Virus record (IMG/VR): IMGVR_UViG_3300009194_000008
Location: 1 to 64,000 of that record
DNA length: 64,000 nucleotides
Strand: one strand, 5' to 3'
From: a virus
Below the pieces are notes generated by a model. The model did no database searches. It was not told where the DNA came from and saw only the letters and a program-made list of their open reading frames with translations. This document shows positions 2,365 through 28,435 of this stretch, one piece after another. How positions within the stretch are numbered: position 1 is the stretch's first letter; every line of letters starts with the position of its first letter. The translations under genes were made by a program, and so were the position numbers.

Positions 2365-3768
2365 ATGGCACTCTTTAATGAAAACCAGGATGGGCCGAAC
2401 GAAGAACCCCAGCCAACGGTGAAGCCCAGGATCGAGCCCCAGGTCTTCGACGGCATTACGGTGGACACGGAATACAACCCATCGTCGGCACTACTCACGT
2501 GGGTCGAAGGCTCCAACTGGACAGTCGATTATTATTCTCAGGTGCTGGGTAGTGACAATGAACCCACCCCGCAGGATATGAACCGCGATCCCATCTATCA
2601 GCAGTATAAGCTGATCAAAGGGATGGACCTGAAAGTTACGGCCCCATTGACGTTTAGCCAAGATGCCCAGATGCGCATTATGGAGGTCCGTGGGTCGGGG
2701 ATTACCTACCCGTTCCTGGTACCGAACAAAGGCGATATGTTCGTAGCCGATGTCGGGGACGGTCGTGTTGGGGTGTTCACCATTACGGAGTCATTGCGCT
2801 CTACTATTCTTCGGGACAGTGTCTACACCGTTGAATACATCATGGTGGCCGAACTGGACCAGGCACGCCTCAGTGACCTGGAACGTAAAACCATCGAAAC
2901 CTTCCATTACTCACGGGATTCGTTAATCCGAGGGTGTGGTCCGTTTGTTACCGAACAAGAGAAAACGCGTGGGGAACGGTACCAGCAGTTCCGCCAAGAA
3001 CTTATCGGTCGGTATTTCACTGACTTCCTGAGTCAGGAACACAGCACCCTCCTGGTGCCGGATCAGTTACGTAAGACGTACGACCATTTTGTTACCAAGG
3101 TGGTATTGATGTTGATTGGGTCCCAGGAAGACCCACGTGTTCGCCGCGTCAAAGAAATGAACATCAGCGCTGAACCCGTCATGTCCCAACGAACCCTGTG
3201 GGATGCGATCGTTCATCTCGACTCGACCCGGATGTATGGGGCTACTCAAAAGGCCACCTGTCTTTCCACCAACTATTTCAGAGGACGCCCCACCCTGCAG
3301 GCGTTAGGGTACACCGGCATCTCCCGCGTGGTGTTTCCGGTTGAAGCATCTACTGGAGTCGATAGTCACTACGATGGTGAAGATACCGATGTTCCAGAGG
3401 GTATCCCGTTCCGGGAAGGACGTCCCCGCCGTCCTGAGGTTGGTCCGTATCGTGACCAAGAAACGCGTAACGCGATTTACTTTCAGCCGACACCCCCGGA
3501 ACTCGGCATGGAGTCGTGGAAGACACCCCCGGATATTCACCCCGTAGTCCATGATCGGTACTATGTGTTATCCGAAGCGTTTTATATGGACTATCCCGAA
3601 TCACAATCCAAGCTGGAACAACTTACCCAGCAAGCCATCCGAAAGGAAGCGTTAAACTTAGACCAGCTGGATCATGTCATCAAACGTGCGCTCGATTGGG
3701 ATAACCTTGAACGGTATTACTACTACCCGATATTGTTTGTCCTGTTGAAGCTAGGAATGCAATCATGA
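2365..3768 (+). CDS. Virion-type protein, 467 aa
   Basis: The gene starts one base after the previous stop, with GAGGAAG just upstream. The 467-residue product is soluble, with no signal peptide or membrane segment. It begins with a Pro/Glu-rich leader of about 25 residues, then a mixed alpha/beta body, then helices near the C-terminus. I recognise no catalytic motif. It overlaps the next gene by 4 bases (ATGA), which indicates translational coupling. Tight linkage to large virion-type genes suggests a tail or baseplate component; that is inference. Confidence 0.75.
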   Translation: MALFNENQDGPNEEPQPTVKPRIEPQVFDGITVDTEYNPSSALLTWVEGSNWTVDYYSQVLGSDNEPTPQDMNRDPIYQQYKLIKGMDLKVTAPLTFSQDAQMRIMEVRGSGITYPFLVPNKGDMFVADVGDGRVGVFTITESLRSTILRDSVYTVEYIMVAELDQARLSDLERKTIETFHYSRDSLIRGCGPFVTEQEKTRGERYQQFRQELIGRYFTDFLSQEHSTLLVPDQLRKTYDHFVTKVVLMLIGSQEDPRVRRVKEMNISAEPVMSQRTLWDAIVHLDSTRMYGATQKATCLSTNYFRGRPTLQALGYTGISRVVFPVEASTGVDSHYDGEDTDVPEGIPFREGRPRRPEVGPYRDQETRNAIYFQPTPPELGMESWKTPPDIHPVVHDRYYVLSEAFYMDYPESQSKLEQLTQQAIRKEALNLDQLDHVIKRALDWDNLERYYYYPILFVLLKLGMQS

Positions 3769-18960: not shown

Positions 18961-19005
18961 GTGCGTTACCTTAAACCCTTCCTACGCGTAAGGAAAAAAC
19001 GACTC

Positions 19006-21270
19006 ATGAATACCAACCTGAAGAAGCTGTTTGCATCACGTCACGATGCCATGAAGAAGGACTTCGATCTGGGCGGCTTCGTCGCCTCCATGGAATCGGC
19101 CCAAGACACCGTCGGCAGTGTGCTGGCTGGTGGTAAGGAACTGGCCTCCCGTGTCTCCGTCGAATCTTTCGGCGACCTGGGCATGGAAGAAGCTCAGACC
19201 TGTCAAGAGCTCTACGCTTCCATGGAAGAAGCCCTGGAGCATGAAGGTTTCGAATCCTTCAACGCCAAGCGCGGTGATGACGCTTCCCGTATCGGTGAGA
19301 ACCAGATCATGGCAGCCACCCTGGCTTCCATCGCCGGTAACGAAGAAGTTCGCTACAAGCGCGCCATGCGCGGCATGACCACCACCCCGCAGTCCAACAA
19401 CCCGAACGTCATCTCCATCGCTCCGATGATGGATGGCCCGCACGGTCAGATGCCGGTGCTCTCCGAAGGCCAAGGCCTGGAGAACTACAACGAGAAGTCC
19501 CAGCGTGACTTCCGCGTCATCTCCGTCGCCTACAACCTGGCCGCTGCTCGTCAGGATGCCTTCGGCGAAGCCATCTACCCGACCGTCGTGGTGAACCCGA
19601 CTGAAGGTGGTGTGACCCAGAACCTGACCTACGCTGCCGTCCTCAAGGACGTCTTCCATGAAGTCACCGGCGCGCTGTTCGACACCCGTGAAGTCAACAT
19701 GGTCGAAGCCTTCCGTGACCCGTCCGTCCTGGAAGATGCCAGCACCAAGCTGGTTCCGGTCGTCGACGATGCCGACAAGAACGCTCGCGTGTTCGTGGAC
19801 CCCGCCATCATCGCTCCGGTCTCCATCGACCTCGAGAAAGGCGGTACCGTCAACACCGCTCCGCTGAAGATCGGTGAGAAGTTCGACCTGATCGGCGTGT
19901 CCAACCGTCAGCAGCTGATCGCTGGCAACATGCTGGACGTGTCCGACACCATCGACCCGGCCATGCGTCTGAAGAACCTGTACGTCCGTACCGGTGGCGC
20001 CTCCCCGAAGGTCATCAAGTTCACTGTCGAGCGCATGCCGACCGCAGTGTTCCAGCCGAGCCTGACCAACGATACCCGTCTGGCCCAGCTGAACTTCACC
20101 ACCGAAGACCTGGTGCTGTCAGCCTCTACCAAGGCCATCGACGGTTCTACCAACACCGCTATCGACGAGCTGGCCAACCGTAACTGGACCATGCGCGTCT
20201 CTGTCAGCGCTTCCGGTAACGTCTCCCTGTCCAAGGGTGATGCCTGGATCCACGCCACCCCGGTGGTGATCGAGAAGCTGCTCGACGAAGATGGTACCGC
20301 CCTGGACAAGTCCGCTGGCGATGCCGCTACCGTTGTTGACGCGTTCGGCGACATGACCGTTGTCGGTTACGACCTCGACGCCCGCTTCACCAACACCAAC
20401 CGTCGTGAGCGCGGTCAGCTGGTGCAGACCCGTACTCTGCAGTTCCGCTACCCGATCCCGATGCACAGCCCGATCACCCTGCCGATGTCCACCATGGACG
20501 AGTCTGGTCCGGGCGATGTGGTCAAGACCCTGACCGTGGCCACCAACATCCGTAACAGCAACAACGCTGTGACTCGCCTGCTGAACTACCTGGCTCAGCT
20601 GCGTGAAGTGGTGACCTCTGGTTACGACCGTCCGAAGTTCGGTGCTGTCGAAGGTGCCCTGTCCGCCATGATCCGCCCGACCTACCGGTCCGGCACCCTG
20701 GATCTGGAAGCAGCCATCGATACCGTCCGCTCCAAGGACCGTTGGGAAGACGTCTGCCAGACCATCCTCAACACCATCAAGAGCATGCTGTTCCCGGCAT
20801 ACCGCGACTCCAACATCGAGGCGGCCTTCCAGACCGTCACCGGCAACGCTGATGAGCGTCCCAAGTTCATCATCGCCACCGATAAGGAAATCGCGCATTA
20901 CCTGATGCTCAAAGGTGATGACCGGACTCTGGGTTCTTACCTGAAGTATGATATCGTCTCCACCAACAACGAGCGGTTCGATGGCAAGATCGTCATCATC
21001 CCGACTCGCGAGAACCCGGTCGAGAACGACATCCTGAACTTCGGTCAGTTCTACTACGTCCCGACCATCGTGGCCGATCTCCCGATCAGCCGCAACGGTC
21101 AGACCTCGCGTGAAATCGCTGCCGTGCCGTTCAACCTGCACGTCAACAACATCCCGTTCGCTATCGAGCTGGACGTTGTGGGTCTGGACCGCGTCATGGG
21201 TTCTTCTCAGTACAACAGCCTCCCGGGCTTCCAGACTGAGCAAGTGACCATCGAGCAGACCGCTCCCTAA
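19006..21270 (+). CDS. Major capsid protein (phiKZ gp120-like)
   Basis: I choose the ATG at 19006 (MNTNLKKLFA), preceded by TAAGGAAA; it gives 754 residues, close to the phiKZ major head protein. The N-terminal 110 residues are helical and charged, like the propeptide region of phiKZ-type capsid proteins, and the rest is a long alpha/beta body rich in Val, Thr and Asp. Codon usage is extremely biased to C or G at the third position, as expected for the most abundant virion protein. Sites of the S/A/G-x-E type used by phiKZ prohead proteases occur at residues 51-53 (SVE) and 157-159 (GLE). A strong terminator follows. The family call rests on my recall of phiKZ-like capsids. Confidence 0.8.
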   Translation: MNTNLKKLFASRHDAMKKDFDLGGFVASMESAQDTVGSVLAGGKELASRVSVESFGDLGMEEAQTCQELYASMEEALEHEGFESFNAKRGDDASRIGENQIMAATLASIAGNEEVRYKRAMRGMTTTPQSNNPNVISIAPMMDGPHGQMPVLSEGQGLENYNEKSQRDFRVISVAYNLAAARQDAFGEAIYPTVVVNPTEGGVTQNLTYAAVLKDVFHEVTGALFDTREVNMVEAFRDPSVLEDASTKLVPVVDDADKNARVFVDPAIIAPVSIDLEKGGTVNTAPLKIGEKFDLIGVSNRQQLIAGNMLDVSDTIDPAMRLKNLYVRTGGASPKVIKFTVERMPTAVFQPSLTNDTRLAQLNFTTEDLVLSASTKAIDGSTNTAIDELANRNWTMRVSVSASGNVSLSKGDAWIHATPVVIEKLLDEDGTALDKSAGDAATVVDAFGDMTVVGYDLDARFTNTNRRERGQLVQTRTLQFRYPIPMHSPITLPMSTMDESGPGDVVKTLTVATNIRNSNNAVTRLLNYLAQLREVVTSGYDRPKFGAVEGALSAMIRPTYRSGTLDLEAAIDTVRSKDRWEDVCQTILNTIKSMLFPAYRDSNIEAAFQTVTGNADERPKFIIATDKEIAHYLMLKGDDRTLGSYLKYDIVSTNNERFDGKIVIIPTRENPVENDILNFGQFYYVPTIVADLPISRNGQTSREIAAVPFNLHVNNIPFAIELDVVGLDRVMGSSQYNSLPGFQTEQVTIEQTAP

Positions 21271-21336: not shown

Positions 21337-21403
21337 TCCGGAAGGAATACCCGCCAGGCTAATCATTTGCAGTATGTCTACATCCACTAACACCAAGGAC
21401 GTT

Positions 21404-22576
21404 ATGAAAGCCACAATTTCGTTAACCAGTGATCAAGGACAGACATTGGACGAGAAGACTGTTACCCTTGAAGTCCCGGCGCATGATGCGCTGGAGTATG
21501 CCGAAGTGGTACCTGAGGTGGTGAGTCGATGGAACGGTGGGGCCGTTATTGAACTGACCGTACATAACCACATGGTAACCCCCATACGTAACCCTCAAGT
21601 TAGCTTTTCCCTTAATGGGTCGCTGGCCGAGGTGTGGAACGGCAACATTGTGGTGAGTCAAGCACCCTATCATCAACTGCGGCTCGATGAAGAGATCATC
21701 GCCACCGGTGACAGTGGTCGGTGTCGAGTCAAGGTTTATTTAACCAACGATGTATTGCCGGAACAGTATCGGGTGTTGACTACCCTACCCGGTCCGAGTA
21801 CAGCGCCAGTGTCTCCTGACAACGTAGATAGTAACAACGACCTTGACGACTACCATCTTCTGACAACACTGATTCCTGACTACGATGAATTTGATCGTGT
21901 CATGGAAGTGCGGGACGTGTCGTCTGTCTGGGGTGAAGAGAACACTCACATTATCCCCGGTACGACAACACCGGATCGGGAACGTGGATTCCGGACAACG
22001 GTTAAAGAAGGCACCTCCTCCAATGGTGACAATGGTGTTGGGGGCACGGGCTTCGATTTCAATTTCCAAGGGTATACGACTGCTATCCTGGCGTACCGCA
22101 TTCGCTTTGAAGCGGGGTTTGATTTCGTTAAGGGTGGCAAGCTCCCCGGGTTAGCTGGCGGCGATACCCCCAGCGGCGGTCAATCCGCCGAGAACGGATT
22201 CTCGATGCGACTGATGTGGCGCGAAGAGGGCTACGGTGAAGTCTATCATTACGGACCGTATCGTGAGAACCACTATGGTGATAGCATCGGTCGGGGTAAC
22301 TTCCGCTTCGAAGCAGGTCGTTGGATGAACATCATGCAGCAGATCGTGCTCAACACGATCGGTCCTGACGGTACCCCCAATGCCGATGGGATACTGCGAC
22401 TGTGGGTTGACGGGAAGCTTGTGATTGAATCCACTTCCATGGTCTATCGCAACAAGCCCGAGGTATTGATCAGTGCCTTGATGTACACCATCTTCTTTGG
22501 TGGTACTGGGGAAGAGTGGCGGACACCGAGGGATCAGTACATCGATACCAGCAATTACGAGATTTACGTACTGTAA
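21404..22576 (+). CDS. PL14 polysaccharide (alginate/glucuronan) lyase with CBM2-like domain
   Basis: I choose the ATG at 21404 because AAGGA lies 5 bases upstream; the ATG at 21374 overlaps a TATGTC motif. Residues about 30-115 look like a CBM2-type carbohydrate-binding domain (W-x-G-G near 43, paired strands, IIATGDSGR). Residues about 150-390 match polysaccharide lyase family 14. Residues that I recall as catalytic in the Chlorella-virus enzyme vAL-1 are present with matching spacing: K246 in KGGKLPGL, S267 and R269 in GFSMRLMW, Y281 and Y283 in VYHY. The enzyme should cleave uronic-acid polymers such as alginate or glucuronan by beta-elimination. As a virion part it would degrade host capsule or biofilm; as a free enzyme it could spread into the matrix. 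No signal peptide is visible. Confidence 0.8.
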   Translation: MKATISLTSDQGQTLDEKTVTLEVPAHDALEYAEVVPEVVSRWNGGAVIELTVHNHMVTPIRNPQVSFSLNGSLAEVWNGNIVVSQAPYHQLRLDEEIIATGDSGRCRVKVYLTNDVLPEQYRVLTTLPGPSTAPVSPDNVDSNNDLDDYHLLTTLIPDYDEFDRVMEVRDVSSVWGEENTHIIPGTTTPDRERGFRTTVKEGTSSNGDNGVGGTGFDFNFQGYTTAILAYRIRFEAGFDFVKGGKLPGLAGGDTPSGGQSAENGFSMRLMWREEGYGEVYHYGPYRENHYGDSIGRGNFRFEAGRWMNIMQQIVLNTIGPDGTPNADGILRLWVDGKLVIESTSMVYRNKPEVLISALMYTIFFGGTGEEWRTPRDQYIDTSNYEIYVL

Positions 22577-22649: not shown

Positions 22650-23423
22650 ATGCTGACCACAGCACTTCGATGGAATGACAATGACCGACATTTCGGTCCT
22701 TTTTTATTTTCTCGCCGTCAGCCCGATGGTTTTACTGCCACTGGACTTGTACTTGAGTCCAATCCCGATTATGACAATGACGATAAAGCCCGTTGTTTCC
22801 TACGGTGTCATCTTGTTGGTCATACCGTAATCGTCTGGCTTCCCACACTCTTCAAGCCATACCGAGAAACGTTGCCAAGAGAGCACAGTGCACTAACCGA
22901 ATCCGAGCGTTATGATGAATACCCGAGGGAATTCGGGGTAACGCTAAACCGGGCGTTTCTGCAGGTATTTTACGGGCGTCAAACTGACGACAGTAGTACC
23001 ACCCGGAGCTGGTCGGCGTTCCTGCCTTGGACAGAAACCCGGTTAGTCAAACAGAACTTGATCGACACCCAGGGAAATGAAATCGCGAACGACGGCGCAC
23101 TACTGGCCGATGATCAATATATCCAAAACTTCACGTTTGAGGATACCGACGGTGCGGTCATCCATGCACGGACGTATTTACGCAGTCTCGAATACCGGCG
23201 CGGGGACGGTTGGTTCAAGTGGTTGGGTTACGTGACACCAATGCCCCCGGTTCGTCGGATACTGGACATCGAGTACAGTGTCGAAGTGGGGAGCGGAAAA
23301 AACGATTGGAAGGGAGGCGTGTTGGGGTGTAGCATCGAAGCGCACCCAAGAGAACTCCATGAGTCCGCGTTTATCCGACATTGTAAGAAACGTGGTCTGA
23401 CGTACCCAATCCCCGCAACGTAA
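22650..23423 (+). CDS. Conserved-style phage hypothetical protein, 257 aa
   Basis: ACAGGAAACGTAC precedes the ATG. The 257-residue product is soluble and rich in Arg, Trp and Asp. Its C-terminal half (RTYLRSLEYRRGDGWFKWLG, then DIEYSVEVGSGKNDWKGG and HESAFIRHCKKRGL) recalls uncharacterised proteins found in many tailed phages, but I cannot name a function. It is the last protein gene before the tRNA/HNH region. Confidence 0.65.
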   Translation: MLTTALRWNDNDRHFGPFLFSRRQPDGFTATGLVLESNPDYDNDDKARCFLRCHLVGHTVIVWLPTLFKPYRETLPREHSALTESERYDEYPREFGVTLNRAFLQVFYGRQTDDSSTTRSWSAFLPWTETRLVKQNLIDTQGNEIANDGALLADDQYIQNFTFEDTDGAVIHARTYLRSLEYRRGDGWFKWLGYVTPMPPVRRILDIEYSVEVGSGKNDWKGGVLGCSIEAHPRELHESAFIRHCKKRGLTYPIPAT

Positions 23424-23459
23424 AGAAATACCCAACGTCCCTATGTATTGAAGGGAAAT

Positions 23460-23484
23460 GCCCCGGTGGTGGAATTGGTAGACA
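23460..23484 (+). tRNA. Truncated tRNA-Leu 5' end
   Basis: These 25 bases match the first third of a tRNA-Leu gene: a 7-base acceptor strand GCCCCGG, then TG and a leucine-type D-arm (GTGGAATTGGTAGACA). No matching 3' part (CCGGGGC followed by ACCA) is found downstream, and an HNH endonuclease gene starts 19 bases later. It looks like a tRNA cut off by insertion of that gene, and is probably not functional. Confidence 0.6.
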
Positions 23485-23502
23485 GAACGAAAGGTAACTT
23501 CC

Positions 23503-23991
23503 ATGCTGACCATGCCTGATTGGCAGAAAGTCTATGGACCATACACCCGTAAGGATGGTAGAAAGCATGTTGTTGTTGTGACTAAAGATCCTGCCACTGG
23601 TGCAACGGTTTCCAGACAGACGATCTCGTACCCGAAGTACGTGGTTGAAGGCGTGTTGCTTGAAACATTGCCCGACGACATGACGGTTGACCACATTGAC
23701 CGCAACTTTAAAAACGACTGTCTTTCAAACTACCGGGTAGTTGATAAACCAACACATTCCCGTGAAGATGCAAGACACCGTCGTAAAGATTTAGTTGCGT
23801 GCATTGAATGTGGCGTTAACTTCATTCCGTCAAGTAATCAAGTTAACAATTGGAGTCGCTCTAAGGCAGGTCCTTTCTGCAGTAGGAGTTGTACTGGTCG
23901 TTATGGCCAAAGAGTGCAAACTACAGGAAACCGAGTAAAGCGCAAGGTTGTTGACGTGGAGTATTACTATCTAGACAAACAACTTAGATGA
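23503..23991 (+). CDS. HNH homing endonuclease with zinc ribbon
   Basis: The 162-residue product has the HNH core VDHIDRNFKNDCLSNYRVV (residues 62-80), with the DH pair, the N-rich turn and the final strand in the usual spacing. A second region has C100, C103, C126 and C130, a likely zinc ribbon for DNA binding. It lies between a truncated tRNA-Leu start and an intact tRNA-Leu, 6 bases before the latter. Free-standing HNH genes often target and interrupt tRNA or other conserved genes. It would cut a tRNA-Leu-bearing allele lacking the insert; the target is inference. Confidence 0.82.
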   Translation: MLTMPDWQKVYGPYTRKDGRKHVVVVTKDPATGATVSRQTISYPKYVVEGVLLETLPDDMTVDHIDRNFKNDCLSNYRVVDKPTHSREDARHRRKDLVACIECGVNFIPSSNQVNNWSRSKAGPFCSRSCTGRYGQRVQTTGNRVKRKVVDVEYYYLDKQLR

Positions 23992-23997
23992 AATTTA

Positions 23998-24084
23998 GGG
24001 GCGTTGGCGGAATTGTTATACGCACGTCACTTAAAATGACGCGACCGGAAGGTCATGTGGGTTAGAGTCCCACACGCCCCACCA
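23998..24084 (+). tRNA. tRNA-Leu (anticodon UAA)
   Basis: An 87-base cloverleaf is complete. Acceptor GGGGCGT pairs with ACGCCCC, the D-arm is of leucine type, and the anticodon arm GTCAC-TTAAAAT-GTGAC-like stem (GTCA/TGAC) carries TAA. A long variable arm CGACCGGAAGGTC-type hairpin and a T-arm with GGGTTAGAGTCCC follow. The 3' CCA is encoded. It reads UUA and related leucine codons. It follows the HNH gene by 6 bases and precedes the structured non-coding region. Confidence 0.93.
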
Positions 24085-24090
24085 TTTTAA

Positions 24091-24780
24091 ACAACCCGGC
24101 AAGCTGTGGGTGGATTACCGGGATACTGCAGCCTCCTAAGATGAGCGGGTATTGTGAGTTGGGGATAAGACTTGGGCAGTGTCCCTCAGCCATGATACCG
24201 AAACCCTCATTGAGTCCCATCACTGAGATTGTCTGTCGTCTGAGTGATTACGCATAGACAGGCTAGTGGTCCATCTGCTTTGCCTAACGCGCTACGGCGC
24301 TGCAAAACACAGGACAAAGTTTACACGCCTACTGGGTGGTCCACGAAGGGGTGGAGGTTAGGCATGCTGGTCCGATACATGCTGACCTTACGAAAGCTGA
24401 GACTGGACAAGTCGTGGGGCGTTCGCCTTTAATTGGGAAATTATTGGCGAGCTACTGAGTGTTAGTAGGTTACTGCTGGGAGCTGCCCGGTGCTGATACG
24501 AAAACCTTAAAACCCACGGCGGGCCTATTACGCCCTGGATGTTACTTCGGTAACGCGGGGCATTGGTGGTACCACATCTGGTGGGCCACACTACCTGTGT
24601 TCCAGCACAGTTGAACCCACGAACATGCGACTGACTGGAGAGTCGTATACAAGGCTAGAAGTAATCCAACTGTATCGGCGTCCCTCGGGCCCTTGAACCG
24701 ATACGACAGCGATGAATTGGTGAGTTGGGAGCCTGAACCCAATGCCCCTGGGTAACCAGGGTGCGCGAGATGCACCAAGC
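24091..24780 (+). ncRNA. Candidate giant structured RNA (GOLLD/ROOL-like position)
   Basis: About 700 bases lack any gene with a ribosome site but are packed with perfect helices. Examples are CCCGG/CCGGG (24095/24118), a nested pair ATGAG-GGTAT with ATACC-CTCAT (24141-24210), ATCACT/AGTGAT (24219/24243), TTTGC/GCAAA enclosing GCGC/GCGC (24279-24306), GCCTA/TAGGC enclosing CCAC/GTGG (24327-24363), GTTAC-UUCG-GTAAC (24541), CTGTG/CACAG (24595), CGACT/AGTCG (24628), GTATCGG/CCGATAC (24672/24698), TTGGG/CCCAA (24725), CCCTGG-GUAA-CCAGGG (24746) and GGTGC/GCACC (24760). UUCG and GNRA loops are hallmarks of folded RNA. It lies 3' of a tRNA, as GOLLD and ROOL often do, and ends at a terminator. Class membership is unproven; it could be a new class. 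Confidence 0.65.
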
Positions 24781-24814
24781 GACATAATACCCTCCCTTCG
24801 GGGAGGGGTTATGT
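24781..24814 (+). terminator. Hairpin with TTATG on both sides, ends the RNA region
   Basis: CCCTCCC and GGGAGGG form a 7-bp stem with a UUCG loop, followed by GTTATGTTT. GACATAAT on the left gives ATTATGTC on the other strand. It marks the 3' limit of the structured region. Confidence 0.75.
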
Positions 24815-24887
24815 TTACGTGGAGTCCATGAGATTTGACATCTACATTATTACGGTGAGCTTAACCCAACCGTAAGGAGTCTTACTC

Positions 24888-26809: not shown

Positions 26810-28435
26810 ATGGATAACGCGTTGCTGGAGCGTGTCAAAGCCGTGACACCCGAGTTCAACCCGTCCATCGCCAATGGACTGGCCGTTGAGCACATGATGT
26901 CTGTGTCTCCCGAAACGGGGACCATTTCTGCCGTGGCGTACATCGACCGTCTCATCAGCATCAACCAAGAGCTCTTTCCCGAAGGACTCGTCTATGACGG
27001 GAGCCAGGTTTGTACGCCGTCCCAGCAATTTGAGGAGGTGACACGCGAGTATGATGCCAAACGCAAAGCCAATATCGCTCGTTCTGATACGTACATGGTC
27101 AAGTATCAGTTCTCTTTTAAAGGAGAAAAACTGTTTCCGCGCTATGTCCTACTCCCGTATGTGCGTGACGGGGGTATTTTAAATCTTAACGGTGCGCTCT
27201 ACAATATCTCGCCGGTATTGACTGACGTAGGCTTCTCTGTGCTGAAGGGTAGTATTTTTATCCCGTTCCGACGCACCAAGTTGACCTTTAATCGCGTGGA
27301 CCATCCCTTCTATGCGAATGGGCGACGTGAGATTGTTTACGTTATCTGGAGCATGATCCATCAGCAGATGCGTGAAGTTACAAAACGTGATCTGGACAAT
27401 CGCCGGTACATCGAGTCCTGCCTCGCCCACTACTTCTTCTGTCGCTTTGGGGTCACCGAGACCTTTAAACGCTGGGGACACGCCAACGTGATGGTGGGGT
27501 GGAACAAGGACTTCCCGGAATCGGAATACCCACGTAGTCAATACACCCGTTTCGAGTCAGTCCACCTGAAGGGGCGACACCCCAGTGGTGAGATGTGTCT
27601 AATCGTACCCAAAGAGGAAGACACGGACTTTGTACGGATGTTGGTGGGTGGTTTCTTCTACGTGGTGGATACCTTCCCCGACCACTTCCGGGAGCCGAGC
27701 TGGGTTGACGCCACTACCAATTGGCGTATCCTGCTGGGCCATCTGGTGTTTGGGGACTACCGTCATGCCGGTAAGCTACAAGAAGACATCGATACCCACC
27801 TGGCGGGGTTCGAAATCTCCCTCGATGAAATCACCCGTGATGATCTCAAGGGTCGCCACATCTATGTGGACAACATCTGGGAGTTGCTGTACACCATCAT
27901 GACCGACCTGGCATGCCATTTCTATCAGACCAGTACCGATGAAGCGTCGATGTACAACAAACGTCTCATGGTACTGCGCTACGTCATGGAGGAGTTCAAT
28001 AATCAGATTTCGAAGTTCGGCTACTTCTTCCAGGGGCGCAAGGATAAGGAGTGGACTGCCGATGACCTCAACGAAGCATTAAAGAAGCACTTCAAGCTGA
28101 GTACCTGTGTCGGACGACTGACATCGGAGCATGGGGAAATCAACACCGTCAGCTATCCCGGGGATAACAAAATCTTCCGGATCACGTCGATGTTGATCCC
28201 GCAGGATAAAGCCCGTAAGAGCCGTGGATACAGCAAAGGCTTGATCGACGATGCGTCTCGCTTGCTACATGCGAGTATTGCCGAGATCGGTCAATTCAAT
28301 AACCAACCCAAAAATAACCCGGATGGGCGTAGTCGTGCTAACCCTAACAAGCGCGTTAGTGTGGAAGGACTGGTACAACGTAACCCAGAACGGGAAGAGT
28401 TGATCGAGTCCGTTCAGAAACGACTGCATCGCTGA
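26810..28435 (+). CDS. Split RNA polymerase beta-like subunit (phiKZ gp123-like)
   Basis: The 541-residue product resembles the N-terminal half of the bacterial RNA polymerase beta subunit as split in phiKZ-like phages. The clearest local match is RYVLLPYVRDGGILNLNGAL (about residues 104-123) followed by YNISPVLTD, which parallels the beta-subunit segment with its G-x-F-x-I-N-G-x-E core. The position between capsid and portal genes equals that of phiKZ gp123, a subunit of the non-virion polymerase that transcribes late genes. Other subunits are not in this window. The call rests on motif style, length and synteny. If right, it should read the TATG-type late promoters suggested elsewhere here. 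Confidence 0.6.
   Translation: MDNALLERVKAVTPEFNPSIANGLAVEHMMSVSPETGTISAVAYIDRLISINQELFPEGLVYDGSQVCTPSQQFEEVTREYDAKRKANIARSDTYMVKYQFSFKGEKLFPRYVLLPYVRDGGILNLNGALYNISPVLTDVGFSVLKGSIFIPFRRTKLTFNRVDHPFYANGRREIVYVIWSMIHQQMREVTKRDLDNRRYIESCLAHYFFCRFGVTETFKRWGHANVMVGWNKDFPESEYPRSQYTRFESVHLKGRHPSGEMCLIVPKEEDTDFVRMLVGGFFYVVDTFPDHFREPSWVDATTNWRILLGHLVFGDYRHAGKLQEDIDTHLAGFEISLDEITRDDLKGRHIYVDNIWELLYTIMTDLACHFYQTSTDEASMYNKRLMVLRYVMEEFNNQISKFGYFFQGRKDKEWTADDLNEALKKHFKLSTCVGRLTSEHGEINTVSYPGDNKIFRITSMLIPQDKARKSRGYSKGLIDDASRLLHASIAEIGQFNNQPKNNPDGRSRANPNKRVSVEGLVQRNPEREELIESVQKRLHR

Follow-up and report, generated by a model that had tools for sequence, protein, structure and literature searches.

The window analysed here is the first 64,000 nt of a 98.9-kb IMG/VR contig (IMGVR_UViG_3300009194_000008). 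Judging from the identity of its major capsid protein to known capsids, and from a 541-aa protein (26810-28435) from a PHROG family with a polymerase annotation, aligned with phiKZ gp123, the phage is a phiKZ-like jumbo phage. The capsid gene is followed by a slot that contains a polysaccharide lyase-like gene, the CBASS inhibitor Acb3, a tRNA remnant, an HNH gene, a tRNA-Leu, and the RNA described here (Table 1). The RNA region is 730 nt in length, is poor in open reading frames (ORFs), and begins immediately 3′ of the encoded CCA of tRNA-Leu(UAA), the sole tRNA found in the 98.9-kb record. A preliminary description of this DNA had placed a non-coding RNA directly behind a tRNA, with a terminator at the end of the region, and both placements are right. 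The homologues of the RNA end in a terminator of identical type.

Table 1. Features of the RNA locus in the window. R1 is the model of the 3′ domain; L001 is a related jumbo phage record.
Feature	Position	Strand	Remarks
Major capsid protein gene	18961-21270	+	Left border of the slot; ~55-57% identity to Phabio, Psa21, and phiKZ capsids
Acb3 CBASS inhibitor gene	22650-23423	+	Pfam PF25187, E 7e−50; same putative cargo slot as the RNA
TATG, candidate late promoter for tRNA plus RNA	23442-23445	+	Precedes the tRNA start by 15-18 nt, both here and in L001
Remnant 5′ part of a second tRNA-Leu, then intron-like bases	23460-23484	+	Matches the 5′ exon of the split tRNA-Leu of L001
HNH endonuclease ORF	23503-23991	+	PHROG 14913, E 8.7e−18; between tRNA remnant and tRNA-Leu
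tRNA-Leu(UAA)	23998-24084	+	ARAGORN; CCA encoded; directly 5′ of the RNA
Long-form structured ncRNA, including terminator	24085-24816	+	Homologous to L001:3191-4003, same genomic place
5′-domain nested helix	24148-24200	+	Outer part retained in L001 with compensatory changes
5′-domain hairpin	24219-24248	+	Three compensatory pairs, window vs. L001
UUCG-loop hairpin	24541-24554	+	Stem conserved in L001; loop there UUAA
Hairpin, loop UUCCAG	24595-24610	+	Proposed to pair with the 24625-24648 loop; loop covariation
Partner hairpin, loop GACUGGAG	24625-24648	+	8-bp stem, compensatory changes to L001
Inserted helix GTATCGG/CCGATAC	24672-24704	+	Within a gap of L001
Conserved 3′ domain, three-way junction	24717-24778	+	Model R1, 80.3 bits
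3′-domain outer stem	24717-24722/24773-24778	+	Part of the three-way junction
3′-domain hairpin UUGGG-AGCCUGAA-CCCAA	24725-24742	+	Part of the three-way junction
3′-domain GNRA hairpin	24746-24761	+	GUAA loop; part of the three-way junction
Intrinsic terminator	24784-24816	+	CCCTCCC-TTCG-GGGAGGG hairpin inside a longer stem

The polysaccharide lyase family 14-like protein (21374-22576) adjoins the capsid gene and has a weak match to a cellulose-binding domain. At 23460-23991, a remnant of the split-tRNA-Leu type and the intron-like bases GGTAACT run into the HNH ORF. The intact tRNA-Leu(UAA) downstream differs from the tRNA of the remnant, and the split tRNA has apparently been replaced. In L001, tRNA-Leu(UAA) (2890-3191) is split by a 217-nt group I intron in the anticodon, after its first base, and the joined exons fold as a normal tRNA-Leu. 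The well-known tRNA-Leu intron of cyanobacteria occupies this insertion site. The genomes of these jumbo phages frequently contain group I introns (e.g., G000:94477-94898), with up to seven matches in one record.

The longest ORF within the RNA region is at most 78 aa. We found no conserved coding frame, hidden or otherwise, in the window RNA compared with L001; the frame matches are short or interrupted by stops, thus the region is not a gene, in agreement with the preliminary description. The claim of dense structure made there is another matter, since a large number of perfect helices is a weak argument taken alone. The folding energy (MFE) of the region has a z-score of −3.2 with 20 shuffles, −2.5 with 60 shuffles, and −1.5 without the terminator, but the z-scores of ten coding controls taken from the window span +0.2 to −3.8. 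Folding energy was discarded as evidence of structure, and because the coding controls score as low, the support for structure is covariation, not stability. On covariation, the claim stands.

Relatives were gathered by searching with the neighbouring proteins, which yielded related jumbo phage contigs. The RNA is carried by five close lineages and two distant jumbo phages, with the 3′ domain present in all seven. The close lineages have it between the capsid gene and the following small gene, in one of two forms. Long forms measure 730-812 nt. L001/L006 have the long form, at ~75% identity to the window in the core, and in the window and L001 it follows tRNA-Leu(UAA), also the only tRNA found in the L001 record. 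Short forms (~270-285 nt) occupy the same place in L003, L004/L005, and L010; they consist of the 3′ part alone, without the 5′ domain and without a tRNA. The RNA is modular, and it is accessory: it is missing from the corresponding slot in L002, L007, and L009, and the post-capsid slot is empty in most relatives.

A motif scan (GAGTTGGGAGC...TGA...ATG) over 2.9 million viral contigs recovered the known loci and the two distant carriers, L026 (G001, 279.8 kb) and L027 (G002, 283 kb). Their RNA is ~785-800 nt and lies in another place of the genome, ~25 kb from a capsid gene whose product is 35% identical to that of the window. Two unrelated gene neighbourhoods host the RNA. A stricter motif matched eight contigs, every one a jumbo phage bearing the RNA, and had zero matches in 85,000 bacterial and archaeal genomes. 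BLASTN returned no homologues of the RNA in 50,697 phage records; with L001 as the query, the matches were mainly across its group I intron. Among the carriers found, the RNA appears to be confined to jumbo phages.

Several candidates were rejected. Three hits of the motif scan in viral contigs are chance matches within coding sequence. The two bacterial matches of a looser motif, L070 and L071, have no outer stem and score 13-14 bits; together with L019, L020, L022, and the 5′-motif match L069, they are coding sequence or lack the structure. The phiKZ gap at 114628-115314 has neither the motif nor an R1 match. Besides an HNH_3 gene and a relative-looking small membrane protein, the 3.9-kb slot of L043 (=L008) has a stretch poor in ORFs (L008 ~2960-3740); this stretch may hold another RNA, and has no R1 match.

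The 3′ domain covaries. The outer stem, the UUGGG/CCCAA hairpin, and a second hairpin at the three-way junction are all found in it, with compensatory changes. The first hairpin, UUGGG-AGC(C)UGA(A)-CCCAA, is nearly invariant across 3′ domains. The second, which the preliminary description had listed for its GUAA loop, has a GNRA loop in 5/5 close lineages, and is strongly supported because it is kept in all five despite different stem sequences. In five distinct sequences, 100% of the cells of the domain are paired and 10/17 pairs are altered on both sides with pairing retained. These values were reached by 0/500 shuffles, and sliding the partner by 1-3 columns lowers the pairing to 20-44%, with doubly altered pairs near zero in these controls. 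With L026 and L027 added, in an alignment fitted to the model, 99.1% of cells are paired and 25 are double-change cells. The R1 score is 74-83 bits for the close lineages; for the distant two it is 27-30 bits (E 1e−4 to 4e−4 per genome), and there the link is ~60 nt of 3′ domain originally picked up by the motif. Another 17 records covered by that search, phiKZ, Phabio, and Noxifer among them, do not have R1 (a single match at E 0.7 is noise), nor do ICP1, phage K, FLC9, Eowyn, D6, RVTF4, PA1C, and SPN3US. In the distant phages the domain lies at least ~230 nt upstream of the terminator, and so is not a terminator accessory.

Compensatory changes, proposed earlier as a check on homologues, are present in each group of related phages: 31/176 pairs in the two-sequence consensus of the window and L001, 16/56 in the three short forms, and 14/164 in the consensus of L026 and L027. 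For the 5′ domain, the comparison covers two distinct sequences, the window and L001. Nested helices had been reported at 24141-24210, and their outer helix holds up (Table 1). The reported UUCG hairpin is present, and pairs 476-505 and 478-503 (alignment columns) of its flanking stem are compensatory against L001; its stem is kept there, but its loop is not. The reported GTATCGG/CCGATAC helix also exists, but it is lineage-specific because the insertion that contains it is absent from L001.

The loop of the hairpin at 24625-24648 covaries with 24600-24605. UCCAG(U)/(A)CUGGA in the window becomes UCCAAC/GUUGGA and UCCAAU/AUUGGA in relatives, and we propose that this loop and that of the 24595-24610 hairpin pair with each other. 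A self-complementary GTGGTACCAC at 24566-24575 is identical in L001 and is a possible RNA dimerisation site. In the RNA of L026 and L027, the hairpin that precedes the 3′ domain has a GAACGA loop, for which a conserved TCGTTC ~200 nt downstream is a possible pairing partner. The fold has been kept in related phages while the letters change, thus the RNA is real; we have very little doubt that 24085-24816 is a conserved structured RNA.

When 4227 Rfam covariance models were searched, only tRNA reached threshold in the window, and the homologous RNAs gave the same outcome except for the tRNA intron of L001. That match (RF00028; tight bounds G003:46167-46366) sits in the tRNA. These phages thus have group I introns, one in the tRNA-Leu next to the L001 RNA and others at further sites of the genomes, but not in the RNA, and the group I intron core (P3-P8, P7) has no match in the window RNA. 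HEARO, RNase P, and tmRNA were rejected, with no covariance-model match. With filters relaxed and a cutoff of E ≤ 10, the GOLLD model (RF02032) found nothing in the window, and seven whole records searched at E ≤ 1 were negative too; the ROOL model (RF03087) likewise gave no match. A positive control was run for ROOL, whose model finds ROOL in a known carrier, plasmid pMP118, at 130.4 bits. The preliminary description had suggested a member of GOLLD or ROOL or else a new class in jumbo phages. The covariance models speak against the former. The latter agrees with what we found, a covarying structured RNA in jumbo phages only, without an Rfam match.

The likeness to these two classes is one of plan. 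ROOL is a multimeric RNA nanocage. To our knowledge, GOLLD and ROOL are both large ornate phage RNAs without a known function. GOLLD is a large phage and prophage ncRNA, often near tRNAs, whose 3′ region is conserved and whose 5′ region varies; it forms a 14-mer RNA nanocage, and its expression rises during lysis (PMC12286853). The RNA described here is, in its long forms, likewise large and near tRNAs (directly 3′ in the window and L001; ~1.5-2.5 kb away in G001 and G002, which have two tRNAs each per ~280-kb genome). It also shares the conserved 3′/variable 5′ plan, with a 5′ domain that differs or is missing among the seven lineages and a conserved 3′ domain of ~60 nt, which grows to a few hundred nt in close relatives if the loop-loop hairpins are counted. 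Unlike GOLLD, some phages here keep only the 3′ part, and the carriers seen are jumbo phages only. ROOL is ~580-660 nt, phage-borne, and often near tRNA islands (PMC12286853), similar in size and setting to our long forms, but without a model match.

Other large phages have comparable RNAs that are likewise unclassified. An ~800-nt ncRNA of ICP1 is its most abundant transcript (PMC7567579), and phage K has lncRNAs near tRNAs (PMC9241854). These are of similar length and also occupy ORF-less gaps in large phage genomes, and they illustrate that such gaps can yield very abundant transcripts; the genomes differ in that they are without the 3′ domain of the jumbo phage RNA. In the literature, we found no large structured RNA described for phiKZ-like phages. 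Grad-seq of phiKZ gave two ncRNA candidates, one a ~100-nt 3′-UTR fragment (PMC8545117). On these comparisons, we regard the RNA as a class of its own within a known kind of large phage ncRNAs.

The late promoters of the phiKZ non-virion RNA polymerase (nvRNAP) are TATG, with +1 at the G; the motif is short and is insufficient alone as a promoter (PMC4666361). The window and L001 have a TATG before the tRNA, thus one transcript would cover both, and 3′ processing of the tRNA would release the RNA. In 3/3 short forms, a TATG is placed so that the predicted RNA start precedes the first helix by 2-3 nt (predicted +1 at L004 3185, L003 3593, and L010 9638). With a TATG start, a terminator end, and no ORF between, the short forms resemble complete transcripts, and they appear to have their own TATG late promoter. 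At operon ends in the window and relatives, many terminators continue directly into TATG(C/T)CGTC. Late terminators and TATG starts may overlap in the clade of the window.

We think it probable that the RNA is a free-standing, late-expressed structural RNA, the folded shape of which is the product. Measured from the capsid end to a 399-aa gene, and including the small gene, the slot is ~600-700 nt without the RNA vs. 2.0-4.3 kb with it, and it is small or empty in phiKZ, Phabio, D6, RVTF4, and PA1C. The enlarged post-capsid slot is restricted to RNA-bearing lineages, except for L039 and L043, where the content is other. The gene just upstream of the RNA in 4/4 short-form records is Tad3, a Thoeris inhibitor found in 0/16 other records searched, and Acb3 is the protein inhibitor just upstream in the window. 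Its gene content makes the slot resemble a site for counter-defence cargo, and these neighbours suggest a counter-defence role for the RNA. It may be anti-immunity cargo and serve as a decoy for, or sponge up, a component of host defence, e.g., an RNA-binding effector, a tRNA nuclease, or a toxin-antitoxin RNA. RNA mimicry has a precedent in phage PhiTE, which mimics the defence RNA of ToxIN (PMC3475682). We hold this role to be possible, and tentatively so; it is compatible with a stand-alone structural RNA and partly overlaps it. The argument is one of guilt by association, and the slot also carries the polysaccharide lyase, the HNH gene, and tRNAs. Moreover, the Tad3-RNA pairs are all from one clade and therefore amount to about one event. 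No anti-defence gene was recognised next to the RNA in the distant phages, and ToxI-like repeats were looked for in the RNA and are absent. That the RNA class itself counters bacterial immunity, as a decoy or an RNA-only particle, the long version released from a tRNA and the short one started on its own, is a rather doubtful extension.

Large structured RNAs commonly have protein partners, and the RNA, which adjoins the capsid gene in close lineages and would be late, might serve a phage protein as a packaging, capsid, or phage-nucleus RNP component. This is unlikely given that the RNA is accessory and is absent from most phiKZ-like phages including phiKZ, that it is ~25 kb from the capsid gene in the distant phages, and that no protein gene is consistently paired with it. 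We find it harder still to credit a cis-acting 3′ UTR or leader, i.e., a stabiliser, attenuator, or processing element of the neighbours. Its length is great for such a role, the short forms seem to own a TATG start directly before the first helix, and the two gene neighbourhoods are unrelated, although the RNA does sit in an intergenic space with a terminator at its end. That the region is a decayed mobile element, or the relic of a ribozyme such as a group I intron, is very improbable and largely refuted by covariation: the adjacent L001 tRNA does have a true group I intron and there are HNH genes in the slot, but no homologue has an intron match in the RNA, bar the stretched assignment of P7′ for the tRNA intron of L001, and maintenance of helices by compensatory change is unexpected for a relic.

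For the free-standing structural RNA that we favour, the best reading, by analogy, is a GOLLD/ROOL-like way of working in a separate and accessory class. It would be transcribed late by the phage nvRNAP from the TATG. The long form would be made together with tRNA-Leu and released by normal tRNA 3′-end processing, with termination at the intrinsic terminator. The variable 5′ domain and the conserved 3′ domain would then fold into a compact particle that features the three-way junction with its GNRA hairpin and, in close lineages, the loop-loop contact. The particle would act in trans and, like GOLLD and ROOL, serve as an RNA scaffold; it would probably be an optional (accessory) helper in particular hosts. 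The short form is without any 5′ domain, thus a large cage may not be general.

The RNA adds a separate class of large RNA in relatives of the nucleus-forming phiKZ group. Its natural short form of ~270 nt makes structural and genetic work much easier than an 800-nt RNA does, and the neighbours Acb3 and Tad3 point to a part in overcoming host defences that can be tested. More broadly, the finding suggests that jumbo phage genomes hold RNA classes that are missing from Rfam.
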